The notes under the pieces were generated by a model. The model saw nothing but the letters and a program-made list of their open reading frames with translations. It made no database searches and was not told where the DNA came from. Of a DNA stretch of 34,973 bases, positions 11,250-18,329 are shown in pieces; position 1 is the stretch's first letter; every line of letters starts with the position of its first letter. The position numbers and the translations under genes are program-made. Origin of the DNA: Actinomycetota bacterium (GTDB lineage: Bacteria; Actinomycetota; Actinomycetes; Actinomycetales; Microbacteriaceae); the NCBI GenBank assembly GCA_020161315.1, contig JAIUOH010000033.1, forward strand, positions 1 to 34,973, written 5' to 3'.

Positions 11250-13343
11250 CTACGCGTCGATGCGCTCGCGATCGAGGTCGTCGGCGTTCTCGATGATGAA
11301 CTCCTTACGCGGCGCGACGTCGCCGCCCATGAGCAGCTCAAACACCTGAGACGCGTCGTGCGCGTCTTTCATGTTGACACGGCGCAGGGTGCGGTGTTCG
11401 CGATCCATCGTGGTCTCGGCCAGCTGGTCTGCATCCATCTCGCCGAGACCCTTGTAGCGCTGAATCGGCTCGACGTACTTCTTGCCGCGCTTGCGCAGGT
11501 CGGCGAGCAGCGTCTGTAGCTCTTTTTCGCTGTAGGTGTAGATCACGTCGTTCGGCTTGCGGCCCGCATTTTGCACGATCACGCGGTGCAGCGGCGGCAC
11601 GGCCGCATAGACGCGGCCGGCCTCGAGCATGGGCCGCATGTAGCGGAAGAACAGCGTCAGTAGCAGCGTGCGAATGTGCGCGCCGTCGACGTCGGCGTCG
11701 CTCATCAGAATCACTTTGCCGTAGCGCACCGAGTCGATATCGAAGTCGCGCCCCGAGCCAGCCCCAATCACCTTGATGATCGAGCTGCACTCGGTGTTGC
11801 CGAGCATTTCGGCGACCGAGGCCTTCTGCACGTTCAAGATCTTGCCGCGAATCGGCAGCAGCGCCTGAAACTCGCTGTCACGGGCGGGCCTTGCGGTGCC
11901 GAGCGCGCTGTCGCCCTCGACGATGAAGAGTTCGGTTTCGGCGACATCGCGCGAGCGGCAGTCGATGAGCTTTGCGGGCAGCGATGAGCTCTCGAGCGAG
12001 CTCTTGCGCCTCGCGGTGTCGCGCTGCGCTCGCAGAGCGATGCGCGACTTCATCTCGGCGACCATCTTCTCGAGTAGCGACGCCGCCTGGGTCTTCTCGT
12101 CACGCTTGGTCGAGTTGTAGCGTTCTTCGAGCCCCTTTGCCACGGCCTTTGCAACGATCTGGCGCACGGCCGCGGTGCCGAGCACCTCTTTCGTCTGCCC
12201 TTCGAACTGCGGCTCGGGCACGCGCACAGTGACGACGGCGGTGAGTCCCGTCAGAATGTCGTCTTTCTCGGGCTTGTCGCTGCCTGCCTTGAGCTTGCGC
12301 GCGTTCTGCTCGATCTGCTTGCGGAAGAACTTCGTCAACCCCTGCTCGAAGCCGCTCAGGTGCGTGCCGCCCTTGGGCGTCGAGATGATGTTCACGAAGC
12401 TCTGAATCTCGGTGTCGTACCCCGTGCCCCAGCGCATCGCGATATCTACCTCGCAACGCCGCTCGACCTCGCGAGATACGAGCCCGCCCGATACTTCGTC
12501 CATCACGGGCACTGTCTCGGTGAAGGTGCCCTCGTCGGTCACTCGCCAGGTCGACGTGAGAGCCGCGTCTACGGCGAGGTAATCAACGAACTCGCTGATG
12601 CCACCCTCGTATTGAAAGCGGTGGATCGGCGCCTCCCCCGACTCCCCCAGCGATTCGACGCGCTCATCGAGAATTTCAATAGCAAGCCCCGGCACCAAAA
12701 ACGCGGTCTGTCGCGCACGCGCAACAAGCGACTCGGGCTCGAAGCGGGCGGTGGCAAGAAAGATCTGCGGGTCGGCCCAGTAGCGCACACGCGTGCCTGT
12801 AACGCCTTTCTTCACCTTGCCGATCTCGCGAAGCGTCGAGGCATCTTCGAAGGGCGTGAACGCACTGTCTGGGGTGTCGCCCGCGAAGACTCCAGGCTCG
12901 CCGTGCCTGAACGACATGGCCCAGGTCTTGCCGTCACGGTCGACCTCAACGTCGAGGCGCGATGAGAGCGCATTCACGACGGATGCGCCGACGCCGTGCA
13001 GACCGCCAGACGAGGCATAGCCGCCACCACCAAACTTGCCGCCCGCGTGCAGCTTCGTGAACACGAGCTCGACACCAGTGAGCCCACTCTTGGGCTCAAC
13101 GTCGACGGGCACACCTCGGCCCCGATCGCTCACCGTCACGCTGCCGTCGGCGTGAAGCCTGATGCCAATCTCTTCACCGTGCCCGGCGAGCGCCTCGTCG
13201 ACCGAGTTGTCGATGATCTCCCAGAGGCAGTGCATCAGGCCACGCGAATCGGTCGTGCCGATGTACATGCCCGGGCGCTTACGAACCGCCTCGAGGCCCT
13301 CGAGTACGGTGAGGTGGCGTGCGGAATAGCTCGACTCTGCCAA
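11250..13343 (-). CDS. parE: DNA topoisomerase IV subunit B (ParE type)
   Basis: ParE is the ATPase subunit that drives strand passage with ParC. The 697-aa chain has the GHKL ATPase domain with EIIDNSVDEALAGHG, RGRGVPV and GGLHGVGASVVNALS. The transducer domain follows, then the TOPRIM domain with FIVEGDSALGTARPARD, LLPIRGKILNVQKA and the metal-binding SDADVDGAHIRTLL. It ends in the conserved RYKGLGEMDADQLAETTM region. The start is a TTG at 13343, 8 nt after AGAAAGGGG, giving MAESSYSARHLTVLEGL; an upstream ATG at 13397 would add 18 unlikely residues. Being a TTG start it may be translated modestly. It is divergent from the DUF7455 gene. Confidence 0.93.
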   Translation of the reverse strand: MAESSYSARHLTVLEGLEAVRKRPGMYIGTTDSRGLMHCLWEIIDNSVDEALAGHGEEIGIRLHADGSVTVSDRGRGVPVDVEPKSGLTGVELVFTKLHAGGKFGGGGYASSGGLHGVGASVVNALSSRLDVEVDRDGKTWAMSFRHGEPGVFAGDTPDSAFTPFEDASTLREIGKVKKGVTGTRVRYWADPQIFLATARFEPESLVARARQTAFLVPGLAIEILDERVESLGESGEAPIHRFQYEGGISEFVDYLAVDAALTSTWRVTDEGTFTETVPVMDEVSGGLVSREVERRCEVDIAMRWGTGYDTEIQSFVNIISTPKGGTHLSGFEQGLTKFFRKQIEQNARKLKAGSDKPEKDDILTGLTAVVTVRVPEPQFEGQTKEVLGTAAVRQIVAKAVAKGLEERYNSTKRDEKTQAASLLEKMVAEMKSRIALRAQRDTARRKSSLESSSLPAKLIDCRSRDVAETELFIVEGDSALGTARPARDSEFQALLPIRGKILNVQKASVAEMLGNTECSSIIKVIGAGSGRDFDIDSVRYGKVILMSDADVDGAHIRTLLLTLFFRYMRPMLEAGRVYAAVPPLHRVIVQNAGRKPNDVIYTYSEKELQTLLADLRKRGKKYVEPIQRYKGLGEMDADQLAETTMDREHRTLRRVNMKDAHDASQVFELLMGGDVAPRKEFIIENADDLDRERIDA

Positions 13344-13510
13344 GGCGGCGGCCCCTTTCTGGTGTGACCTGTTAACCCTAGAACGAACCACCGACATTGC
13401 CCCTGAAACGCGCCGCCTATCGCGAGACCCCGCGGGCTACGCGGTCAGCGAAACCGTGCGGCGCTGCAAACAAACTCCAGGTAAACGTGGTTTGATTGAG
13501 GCACGAGAAG

Positions 13511-13547
13511 AAATCGAGGTACCGCTTTACGCGGAATGCCTCGATTT
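13511..13547 (+). promoter_or_regulatory. Hairpin in the leader of the DUF7455/ATP-grasp operon
   Basis: A perfect 9-bp stem (13511-13519 aaatcgagg with 13539-13547 cctcgattt) encloses a second 4-bp stem (ccgc/gcgg). It is followed by TTTT and, 14 nt later, by GAGGGAGG, the ribosome binding site. It could be an attenuator or a structure that shields or stabilises the leader. No peptide or ligand motif is evident. Confidence 0.4.
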
Positions 13548-13573
13548 TAACCCAAGAGATGAGGGAGGCAGCC

Positions 13574-13801
13574 ATGACTACGCTGGAACAGGATCGCGCA
13601 GAGACCGCAGCTGCAGCAGACCGCCCCATCACCGGCCTCGACCGCTGCGACAGCTGCGGTGCGCAGGCCTACGTGCGCGTGGTGCTCAGCGGTAGCGAAC
13701 TGCTCTTCTGCGGCCACCACGCGAAGAAGCACGAGGCCAAGCTGCGCCCAATGGCCGAGGTGTGGCACGACGAGACCTCGCGTCTCGTGGACGCTCGATG
13801 A
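13574..13801 (+). CDS. DUF7455-like small Cys/His protein
   Basis: The 75-aa protein has a probable zinc-binding pattern: CDSCGAQAYVR followed after about 20 residues by LFCGHHAKKHE, giving Cys-x2-Cys and Cys-x2-His-His. Proteins of this type accompany primary sigma factor loci in actinobacteria; the function is unknown. GAGGGAGG ends 5 nt before the ATG at 13574, so the longer frame from 13496 is unlikely. Its TGA overlaps the ATG of the ATP-grasp gene in ATGA, so the two are translationally coupled. Confidence 0.8.
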   Translation: MTTLEQDRAETAAAADRPITGLDRCDSCGAQAYVRVVLSGSELLFCGHHAKKHEAKLRPMAEVWHDETSRLVDAR

Positions 13802-14814
13802 GCCAGCTCGGCCTCGGCAGGCGCTTTAGCTACCTGATTGACCGCGCCAAGGCGCTCGACACGGGGCGGCTCTGGAAGCTCGCTGGCACCATCGGCAAAG
13901 ATGCGCGCAAACCGCGCCTGGTGATCCTCGCCGATCTGCTGTATTGCTCGGCAACCTACGAAATCGCGTTTCAGGATTACCAGGACTGGGATTTTTACGA
14001 CCTCAAGCGCGCCGAGCGCCGCACCTTTATGAGCCACCCCAAGTCGAACCACTTGGCACTGAAGCTCAACGACCGCGCGTTTAGCGGCAAGTTCGCCGAC
14101 AAGTCTCGCTTCAACAAAGAGTTTGCGCCCTATGTTGGCCGTGAGTGGATCGATATTCGCGAGGCTGACGCCAAGCAGATTGAAGAGTTCGTCACTCGCC
14201 AGGGTGCTGTGATGGCCAAGGTGCCCGACAGCCTCGGCGGCATCGGCATCGGCAAGCGCGAAGCGGCCGAAATCACCGACTACGAGGCCTTTCGCAACGA
14301 GCTCCTCGAGGGCCGACAGTTCTTGCTCGAGCAGCTGATCCCCCAACACGCTGAGATGTCGCGCCTCTGCCACACGAGCGTGAACACCCTGCGCATCGTC
14401 AGCTACTTCGACGGCGACGAGGTGCACGTGCTTGCGCGCGCGCTGAAGATCGGCAATGGTGGCGCGGTCGACAACTTCAGCCACGGCGGCATGTACACCA
14501 TGCTCGATGAGCAGGGCGTGGCGCGTTACGCCGCATTCGACGGCGATAACCGTACCTTCACCGTGCACCCCGTCACCGGTACGTCGATCGTTGGTTTTCA
14601 GGTGCCACTGTTCGACGAGGTGCTGCGCTTCGTCGACGAGATTGCCCGCGTCATTCCCCAGGTGCCCTACGTGGGCTGGGATATCGCCGTTACTCCTGAC
14701 GGCCCGGCGGTCATCGAGGGCAACTACAACTCCGGCGTGTTTCAAACCAAGCCGAGCGTCTCGGGTGTTCGCACCGGCCTACTGCCCCACTACCGCGAGG
14801 TTATTGGCTTCTAA
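13798..14814 (+). CDS. Sugar-transfer-associated-type ATP-grasp protein
   Basis: This 338-aa protein resembles the ATPgrasp_ST family (PF14397). ATP-grasp enzymes join a carboxylate to an amine or similar nucleophile through an acyl phosphate. Visible landmarks are GAVMAKVPDSLGGIGIGK (nucleotide-binding lysine and glycine loop, about 135-155), FLLEQLIPQH (the hinge), SVNTLRIVSYF, VDNFSHGGMY, and the metal-binding end YVGWDIAVTPDGP.VIEGNYN. The product is not known. The start overlaps the upstream stop (ATGA), so I reject the longer frame from 13762. The gene ends 44 nt from the end of the convergent GatD-like gene. Both sit beside the MurT-like ligase, which suggests, but does not prove, a shared role in the cell envelope. 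Confidence 0.8.
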   Translation: MSQLGLGRRFSYLIDRAKALDTGRLWKLAGTIGKDARKPRLVILADLLYCSATYEIAFQDYQDWDFYDLKRAERRTFMSHPKSNHLALKLNDRAFSGKFADKSRFNKEFAPYVGREWIDIREADAKQIEEFVTRQGAVMAKVPDSLGGIGIGKREAAEITDYEAFRNELLEGRQFLLEQLIPQHAEMSRLCHTSVNTLRIVSYFDGDEVHVLARALKIGNGGAVDNFSHGGMYTMLDEQGVARYAAFDGDNRTFTVHPVTGTSIVGFQVPLFDEVLRFVDEIARVIPQVPYVGWDIAVTPDGPAVIEGNYNSGVFQTKPSVSGVRTGLLPHYREVIGF

Positions 14815-14858: not shown

Positions 14859-15617
14859 TCAGGCCTGCACCTGTTCAAACGCAAACCAGCTGCGGGCCTG
14901 CTGAAAGCGCCGCAGGCGAAGCTCATACGCACGCGTCGCGTACTCCTCGTGCGCGAGCGTCGGCTCGGTATTCGGGTCGATCATGCTGAGCAGCGCTCGC
15001 GTCAAATACGGGTTCGTCGTGAGCAGGGGCCCGATCAGCGAGGTGCCAATAAAGTTGCCCACGCGCACGCCCTCTGTCGAGGTGTTAGTGTTGCGCCCGA
15101 TCCCGCGCGATGCGGTCAAAAAACCGGGCAGCTCGTCGCCGCCGTGCAGCATCGAAAACTGTGATTTGTAACCGATCACGGGGTGTTCGTTCCCAACCTC
15201 GGCAACGGTGCCCATGACCTTGCCGTTGTACCTGCCGGTCATGTGCACGGTCGTCTCGAAGTCGAAAATGCCGACACCCGAAACGTCATAGCCCATGGCT
15301 TCGTTGCTGATGCGAGCACCCAGGGTCTCAATCGCGTTGTGAGTGAAGAGGCTGGGGGCGCTGCCCGCGACGCGATCGCGCAGCGCCGAGGCGTATGGCC
15401 GCAGCCGCTCGATCACCTTGAGCTGCCCCTGCTCGGTGAGCGGGCCGAGATAGAGCAGGTCAACGCGTTCCTGTGTGAACGCCGGCCGCTCAGTGAGGCT
15501 CGTGCGAATCACCCGAGCATCGGGTCGGCACTGCGCAAGGTAGTCAATGTTGAGGGTATCGCCGTGCAGATTGGCTATCTCTGGGTAGAGCATCTCAATG
15601 ACTGGTGCGCCGCTCAT
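14859..15617 (-). CDS. GatD-like glutamine amidotransferase homologue lacking catalytic residues
   Basis: The 252-aa protein aligns along its length with GatD, the glutaminase half of the MurT/GatD complex that amidates lipid II. By alignment to S. aureus GatD recalled from memory, the nucleophile Cys94 in LTICGGYQFLG is replaced by His93 in LFTHNAIETLG. The catalytic His189 in GTYLHGPILPKN is replaced by Ile195 in GTSLIGPLLTTN. The GGGSDREQ loop has become GPLTEQGQ. Structural positions around them (GVGIFDFET, VIGYKSQ, GPLLTTNP) are kept, and the reading frame is full length, so this is an intact protein that should not hydrolyse glutamine. Its ATG overlaps the stop of the MurT-like gene in ATGA, the arrangement of canonical murT-gatD. 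A scaffold or substrate-binding partner for the MurT-like ligase is the likeliest role. Confidence 0.75.
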   Translation of the reverse strand: MSGAPVIEMLYPEIANLHGDTLNIDYLAQCRPDARVIRTSLTERPAFTQERVDLLYLGPLTEQGQLKVIERLRPYASALRDRVAGSAPSLFTHNAIETLGARISNEAMGYDVSGVGIFDFETTVHMTGRYNGKVMGTVAEVGNEHPVIGYKSQFSMLHGGDELPGFLTASRGIGRNTNTSTEGVRVGNFIGTSLIGPLLTTNPYLTRALLSMIDPNTEPTLAHEEYATRAYELRLRRFQQARSWFAFEQVQA

Positions 15618-17015
15618 GCGTTGTTCCTTGGAGTCTCGGCTTCACGGGCAAGCACGCGCTCTCGAAGCCGCGCCTGCACCTTGCTGCCGGTGCGCACCGC
15701 GTTGTGTGGTGCGTAGGTGTTACCGATGAAATCGATACCGTCGAGATCAACCAGCTCTGCTGTCTCTACCTCGGATTCAACCGTCACGATGCGCGACGGG
15801 TCGACGCCGGCGATCGCGAGACGCAGCGCGTGGTCGTAGCGGTGCCCGCCACCCACAACAATCTGCTCGATCTGCTCGTCTGCAAGATAGTCGTAGTCGG
15901 CATCGTAGATCCACGCTGTGTTCTCAACCTCGTACGGGTTGTCATGTTCGCCGTCGATCGTGAGCACGATGGCCTTTTTGCCGGGAAACTCTGCGAGGTA
16001 CGCAAACGCGCGCGAGCAGGCCGTACCGACAAGGCCCTTCGCCAGCTGCCTCACCAGGAGCACGCTACCCAGCTGCTCCTGGTCGAAACGCGTGACGGGC
16101 GGCGCGACGTGTTCGAGTACGCTCGCGATGCGTTCGAGCGGCAGCTGTAACGCATCGAGCGCGGCAACCACGGCGATCTCGTTGTAGATATTGACGATGT
16201 TGTCGTTGACGAGAGCAACGTCGAGCGCTGCGCCACGCACGTCGAGCTGCACGCGCTTCGCCTCCGTGTCGATCGCAGTGATGCGGTACTCGGCATCGGG
16301 CGATCGGTAGCCGCAGTTTGCGCAGCGCGCTCGGCCGATGTGGTTGAAACGCCACGAATCCCACTCAAGCAGGTGGTCACACTCTCCGCACGCCATCGCA
16401 TCGAGCGCTACGCCGTGCGGGTCGTGGCCGTCGCCCGGCATGGGGTCGATTGAAAAGAACCGCCTCGGGTTCTCGTTGTGCCCGAGCCGAGAAGCGATCT
16501 GATCGTCGGCATTCAAAATGAGCGTGGTCTCTGGTGAAAGCTCTGATTCGAGCACCCACTTGATGTAGCCGGGGTGCGCATTGCGCTTAATCGAGTCGCG
16601 AGTGAGGTTGGTGCACAGCAACACGTCAGGTTTCAGCCCGGGCAGCACGAGGCGCCCCGAGCGCTCGTCGAGCTCGATCACGGCGATGTCGGCCTTCGAG
16701 CGACCCCAGACCGTGAGCGCCGAAGTCAGCGCAACCGAGATACCCTCGATGAGGTTCGAGCCGATGCGGTTTGTCGCGACGACAAGCCCCTCGGCCTCAA
16801 GCGCATCGCTCAGCATATTGGTGACCGAGGTCTTGCCGTTAGTACCGGTGACCGCGATCACCCGCGCTGGCTTTGTGACATTCGTCATGAAGCGAGGATC
16901 AACGCGAAGCGCGAGGCGACCGGGCACGTGCGTGCCCTCACGCCCCAGCAAGCGCAGCCCCCACGACGAGACCTTAATGGTCCAGATCGCGAGGAGCGTG
17001 CGGAACGGTGGGAGT

Positions 17016-17032
<17 letters not shown>
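15614..17032 (-). CDS. MurT-like Mur ligase (DUF1727), divergent paralogue
   Basis: MurT uses ATP to activate the D-Glu alpha-carboxyl of lipid II. This 472-aa homologue keeps the P-loop GTNGKT (63-68), the acidic IELDE (119-123), the zinc-ribbon cysteines Cys215, Cys218, Cys237 and Cys240, and the WIYDADY segment of DUF1727. It differs at signature sites: RDQxDRxGE became [13 protein letters not shown] became GLVG, and the Asp that completes the GatD triad (S. aureus Asp349, in DTSW, from memory) is Asn371 in NTAW. A basic N-terminal helix with a hydrophobic face (about 8-30) could touch the membrane. The GTG start at 17032 lies inside rpoD (17-nt overlap); a TTG at 17023 is an alternative. 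ATP-dependent ligation at lipid II with a nucleophile other than ammonia is my inference. Confidence 0.8.

Positions 17033-18329
<1,297 letters not shown>

Follow-up and report, generated by a model that had tools for sequence, protein, structure and literature searches.

The enzyme pair MurT/GatD amidates the alpha-carboxyl of D-Glu at position 2 of the stem peptide. B-type peptidoglycan is a hallmark of the Microbacteriaceae, and there the same carboxyl bears the interpeptide bridge. This raises the question which reaction is carried out by a MurT/GatD-like pair encoded in a genome of this family, on a stretch of 34,973 nucleotides that was analysed as a whole (the window). An initial annotation had described the MurT-like gene as one with an intact ATP site and rewritten motifs, had read the loss of the catalytic triad as a co-evolved change in both partners, and had proposed that the complex may ligate a diamino acid or glycine at D-Glu. 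We compared the pair with its known relatives, surveyed its occurrence and phylogeny, and analysed the genes that surround it (Table 1).

Table 1. Position of the MurT/GatD-like pair and neighbouring genes in the window.
Feature	Position	Strand	Remarks
parE-like topoisomerase subunit	11250..13397	-	downstream slot border
small zinc-finger-like protein	13496..13801	+	in most slots
ATP-grasp ligase (PF14397)	13762..14814	+	convergent with GatD; 142 bits, gathering threshold 31.4
GatD-like partner without glutaminase triad	14859..15617	-	252 aa; overlaps MurT stop; predicted fold that of S. aureus GatD
MurT-like ligase (W class)	15614..17032	-	GTG start, 472 aa; PF08353 63.7 bits, PF08245 49.3 bits
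sigA-like sigma factor	17016..18329	-	upstream slot border

The MurT-like ligase and its partner

Profile search identified both the MurT_C domain (PF08353) and the Mur ligase middle domain (PF08245) in the window MurT. The ATP motifs are intact (GTNGKT at 63-68, IELDE at 119-123) and the zinc ribbon is kept with its four cysteines (215/218/237/240); together with the Mg2+ glutamate and the MurT_C domain these are the features of a MurT protein. If the motifs are compared with those of S. aureus MurT, RDQxDR, NPAG and Asp349 are absent: RDSIKR (145-150) stands where RDQxDR is expected, GLVG (333-336) replaces NPAG, and Asn371 aligns with the aspartate of DTSW, which is S. aureus Asp349. The motifs as initially annotated were thus confirmed residue by residue. 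A second MurT in the same genome is ruled out, as the profile search of the genome returned no further MurT_C match and hence no separate canonical copy. The pair falls well short of the NCBIfam equivalog cut-offs, scoring 167.9 and 161.9 (cut-off 800), 34.2 (450) and 32.6 (400).

The rewritten motifs are shared by relatives. RDSIKR and GLVG are invariant in the window MurT and nine further sequences of 50-59% identity (ten rows of what we call the W class), the nine relatives all reading KGLVG, which is an argument that the changes are due neither to chance nor to sequencing error. The third motif reads ENTAW in seven of the nine relatives, ENVAW in G029 and EMTAW in G032. Predicted structures of the window MurT and GatD have a mean pLDDT of 86.1 and 89.6, respectively, and find solved MurT and GatD chains as best structural matches; MurT residues 146-151 and 363-371 fall below 50, so that confidence is low in the loops containing RDSIKR and Asn371. 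We further report that in one W-class MurT (L047) a serine has replaced one of the zinc cysteines (CPVS), and that the reading frame of another (L050, genome G009, 86% complete) is broken near the C-terminus.

The partner of the MurT-like ligase has now been located. Its predicted fold is that of GatD, and it is paired with the MurT gene as a GatD should be. In the alignment to S. aureus GatD the glutaminase residues Cys94 and His189 are not present, their places being taken by His93 and Ile195. With Asn371 in the ligase, all three triad residues are therefore lost across both subunits, as had been noted for the third of them.

A loss of this kind could mean a relaxed, decaying amidotransferase without function, a reading to which the missing triad and the broken G009 frame lend some colour. 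In relatives, however, both genes are under purifying selection, with a dN/dS of 0.12-0.20 for GatD in four pairs, which argues that the triad loss is not decay. The invariance of class-specific motifs, the two clades of the MurT tree and the repeated exchange described below speak against it as well. We therefore count decay as ruled out by the selection observed in relatives, leaving it at most a very slim chance.

Mutants of S. aureus give a hint towards the consequences. According to an excerpt of PMC6113224, lipid II amidation is abolished or severely reduced by MurT D349N and by GatD C94S, the former being the same Asp-to-Asn change that the W class carries. Excerpts of PMC3266927 state that a complex with GatD C94G no longer uses glutamine, is still active with NH3 at pH 8.5, and that MurT alone has no activity. 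Glutamine use is accordingly not expected of the window pair, but a dead GatD can still serve as a required partner. Judged from its sequence, the window pair is a real and conserved MurT/GatD-like ligase of a putatively non-glutaminase kind.

The same C94G complex, which amidates lipid II with NH3, is also the starting point of the main rival explanation, namely that the pair still forms D-isoglutamine from free ammonia with GatD as a scaffold. We regard this as unlikely. In B-type walls the carboxyl in question bears the bridge, and RDQxDR, NPAG and the DNAAD loop have been rewritten and then conserved within the class, which is more than a scaffold GatD requires.

Classes and phylogeny

To determine how widespread the variant is, we used a sample of 150 Microbacteriaceae genomes, the window genome included. 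A MurT_C match was found in 103 of them, which by score and sequence divide into 10 W, 3 odd, 17 canonical (class C) and approximately 73 class D sequences, residues being read at the fetched loci and the remaining class D assignments resting on score. Three genomes hold both a class C and a class D MurT. Class D is divergent and devoid of the zinc ribbon; in most of the rows read it keeps the match to Asp349 and has lost Cys94. Joint loss in both partners is therefore not a general rule, and the initial idea of a co-evolved change holds for the W class, where both partners share the change and decay is ruled out, but not beyond. The odd class includes two loci (L053, L054) with highly divergent MurT/GatD pairs that lack the triad.

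We counted the residues of GatD in 134 sequences, one per genome, drawn from 179 open reading frames with a match after removal of duplicates and of weak and short matches. Cys94 occurs in none of the 71 GatDs of the Cys-less classes (0/54 D, 0/10 W, 0/4 W-like from Clostridia, 0/3 odd) and in all 63 comparison sequences (28/28 from other families of the order, 17/17 canonical Microbacteriaceae, 18/18 named others). Glycine takes its place in 44 of the 54 class D sequences. The match to His189 is kept in 19 of these 54, and in 26 of the 28 rows from other families of the order, the other two being gaps at locus ends.

On the MurT tree (93 rows) the W class, the pairs from Clostridia metagenome-assembled genomes and the odd pairs form one clade (support 99/94) beside Bacillota sequences. 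Class D forms a separate clade (100/100) among actinobacterial sequences. We conclude from this tree that the Cys-less state arose at least twice.

The W variant was found in nine of the 149 other Microbacteriaceae genomes. Its low frequency in the family rules out the window variant as the general B-type enzyme of the Microbacteriaceae: it is rare and patchy, and other members have class D, a CofE-like gene with ATP-grasp ligase, or an empty slot. Nor is it general among congeners; in two of these (G014, G096) the slot is empty and the pair is canonical. If the sample is widened to the order, with 248 genomes of which 18 (the window genome among them) belong to the family, the window genome alone scores in the range of the W class (811 bits); the two matches that follow, with 218 and 199 bits, have canonical residues.

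Gene content between sigA and parE

The slot referred to here is the position between two genes that, going by name, we take to be sigA and parE. W and D pairs sit between them according to tblastn. The same method placed a GatD next to each W or D MurT, G095 being the one exception; there a weak GatD was detected by profile. The small protein of the window slot is presumably DUF7455. The window slot combines the MurT/GatD pair with an ATP-grasp ligase, whose best PDB match by sequence is no better than chance (E 0.054).

Slots without a W or D pair often hold a CofE-like protein (PF01996) together with a single or a double set of relatives of the window's PF14397 ATP-grasp ligase; often a split alanine-racemase-like pair is added. 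An example is the slot of Microbacterium testaceum (L257, 3721-4419 and 4751-7494) with CofE-like gene, ATP-grasp gene, and racemase as separate C-domain and N-domain genes. We surveyed 107 genomes, chosen by earlier matches, for which the fetched stretch included both sigA and parE. A W or D MurT is present in 50 slots, a CofE-like gene in 41, an odd MurT together with a CofE-like gene in one, and neither in 15. ATP-grasp genes accompany 39 of the 41 CofE-like slots, six of the ten W slots and one of the 40 D slots; racemase-like genes occur in 26, none and 16 of these, respectively. The single mixed case (G123) contains an odd MurT/GatD pair, the CofE-like gene and a racemase.

Over the family sample, a strong ATP-grasp match was obtained in 27 of 150 genomes, comprising six W genomes, one D genome (G018) and 20 without a convincing MurT. 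Seventeen of these were fetched with both borders, and in all 17 the gene lies between sigA and parE. Among the 248 order genomes it occurs in eight (E<=1e-25, own included), all of them Microbacteriaceae. Ten of the 15 empty slots (L297-L314) belong to genomes with a canonical pair elsewhere, Aurantimicrobium being among these, and in the other five (G019, G049, G051, G119, G121) a MurT_C match is absent.

As the 107 genomes had been picked by earlier matches, the genus g85, which we take to be Microbacterium, the genus of M. testaceum, served as an unbiased test. Its 119 genomes contain a class D pair in 21 cases and a CofE-like gene in 98; none has both and none has neither, with one of the 21 CofE-negative genomes being assigned by elimination. 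A strong ATP-grasp match is found in 97 of the 98 CofE-like genomes and in none of the 21 D genomes, weak matches of 28-32% in G417 and G257 not being counted. As Fisher values take no account of kinship, the slot content was also traced along a parE tree (101 rows, made by a quick method and with many open forks); it changed approximately 27 times, and supported branches force at least seven changes for class D.

This exchange is the more important finding compared to the single pair. In the slot, members of other amide-ligase families can stand in for W and D pairs, a pattern that fits amino acid ligation, as initially proposed for the complex. Every g85 genome has either the D pair or the CofE-like gene, which also argues against the formation of D-isoglutamine from ammonia. 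Two ligase families replace each other repeatedly at a single position next to ATP-grasp and racemase-like genes, and no g85 genome has both; the simplest common job of the slot ligases would thus be the interpeptide bridge of the B-type wall, a synthesis to which PF01996, PF14397 and split alanine racemase domains are suited.

One might also suppose that the slot enzymes modify a different carboxylate, of another stem residue or of a teichuronic or secondary polymer. The 15 empty slots among the 107 Microbacteriaceae and the naming of PF14397 for sugar-transfer contexts point in this direction. MurT relatives of known function, however, act on D-Glu2 of lipid II, and the alanine-racemase-like genes present in 43 of the 107 slots suit D-diamino acids, so that we consider a different target improbable.

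Wall types and distant relatives

The bridge of Microbacterium contains glycine. For the M. testaceum clade an excerpt of PMC10757982 gives D-Orn with one named exception, and describes wall diamino acids as varying inside some Microbacterium clusters. A D-diaminobutyrate bridge is given in excerpts for Clavibacter (PMC9603630, PMC5358740) and Rhodoluna lacicola (PMC4156110). The genomes of C. nebraskensis (G034) and Rhodoluna (G010) have a class D pair and no ATP-grasp gene, as expected for a bridge of one residue. Glycine on the alpha-carboxyl of D-Glu is known even from an A-type wall, that of Intrasporangium, according to an excerpt of PMC3035309.

Regarding the amino acid donor, a W-like MurT in an Oscillospiraceae metagenome-assembled genome is preceded, 28 bases upstream, by a gene for diaminobutyrate transaminase that scores 575.8 bits against a cut-off of 438 (L064, 2407-5056). 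Nine of 49 Microbacteriaceae genomes pass the TIGR00709 cut-off for this enzyme, including Clavibacter, G014 and G096. No match over the cut-off was obtained in any of the ten W genomes, nor in Rhodoluna with its wall D-diaminobutyrate.

Outside the family, a search of 396 Actinomycetota genomes returned nine W-like pairs next after the window's own (430-473 bits), all from another class and all nine Cys-less; the MurT of three of them is 31-38% identical to that of the window. Nineteen loci of that class were read: the nine W-like ones and G874, a different Cys-less pair, six that keep the cysteine and three that were unreadable. At three loci of another actinobacterial class (L325, L326, L327) Cys-less GatD and MurT domains lie on a single open frame of 751-771 aa.

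Atopobium parvulum, the peptidoglycan of which is of type A4alpha (PMC3035223), possesses a Cys-less pair (MurT 34%, GatD 38% identity to the window) as its only match at E<=1e-50, a point in favour of the ammonia explanation. Given the empty ones, the slot is not universal in the Microbacteriaceae, and distant pairs of the W-like kind also occur outside B-type walls. The confinement that the initial annotation implied is partly contradicted by the distant relatives, though not by the close variant, wall types being known for few hosts; its proposal of ligation at D-Glu fits the slot exchange, with the Atopobium pair and the empty slots speaking against a strict link to B-type walls.

Proposed function and significance

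Compared to the lipid II isoglutaminyl synthase MurT/GatD of S. aureus and S. pneumoniae, the window pair shares the two-gene organization, the Mur ligase middle domain, GTNGKT, the Mg2+ glutamate, the zinc ribbon and MurT_C, and differs by the missing Cys/His/Asp triad and the replacement of RDQxDR, NPAG and DNAAD. We propose that the pair probably attaches the amino acid with which the bridge begins to the alpha-carboxyl of D-Glu in B-type peptidoglycan without glutamine, GatD being structural. Like other Mur ligases, MurT would form an acyl-phosphate, here at the alpha-carboxyl of D-Glu2 of the lipid-linked precursor, and the amino group of the first bridge residue would attack in place of ammonia, with glycine, Orn, Lys or diaminobutyrate as candidates. 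GatD would stay as an obligatory structural partner, and the adjoining ATP-grasp ligase may add the next residue. The catalytic core is that of MurE and other amino-acid-adding Mur ligases, to which the proposed chemistry, an acyl-phosphate attacked by an amino acid, is alike. Which group accepts the amino acid, which donor supplies it and in what order the steps run is inferred.

A bridge made in two steps is suggested by the place of the pair, which is that of the CofE-like gene, and by the ATP-grasp gene kept beside it in the window. Evidence against the proposal comes from the four of the ten W slots that have no ATP-grasp gene, from the distant Cys-less pairs outside the family, from the two congeners with an empty slot, and from the W genomes, none of which passes the transaminase cut-off. 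The CofE-like F420-0:gamma-glutamyl ligase (PF01996) shares with the pair the place after sigA, the membership in an amide ligase family and, in g85, the mutual exclusion; it belongs to a Pfam family different from PF08245/PF08353, and its role in the slot is a presumed one. Asl is an ATP-grasp D-aspartate ligase that builds the interpeptide bridge of A4-type walls. The PF14397 protein of the window has the ATP-grasp type in common with it, and may by likeness act on a bridge.

Taking the slot as a whole, we lean, if only by a little, towards regarding it as the missing locus of the B-type (2-4) bridge, with modules that set the wall type: MurT with pseudo-GatD, or the CofE-like enzyme, for the first residue, the ATP-grasp ligase for the second, and the split racemase for the D-isomer. 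A Mur-type amino acid ligase with a dead amidotransferase would then have two or more origins, one of them in a lineage to which Clostridia and the class of Atopobium also belong.

In the open-licence literature searched, no enzyme proposed for joining the B-type bridge to D-Glu was found, and the slot makes this question directly testable. The pair represents a case, found twice, in which a glutaminase subunit has probably become a structural partner and the ligase has changed its nucleophile. If the proposal is true, the wall type would become readable from the genome, and the exchange of genes at one place could explain the patchy occurrence of Orn, Lys and diaminobutyrate types within one genus.
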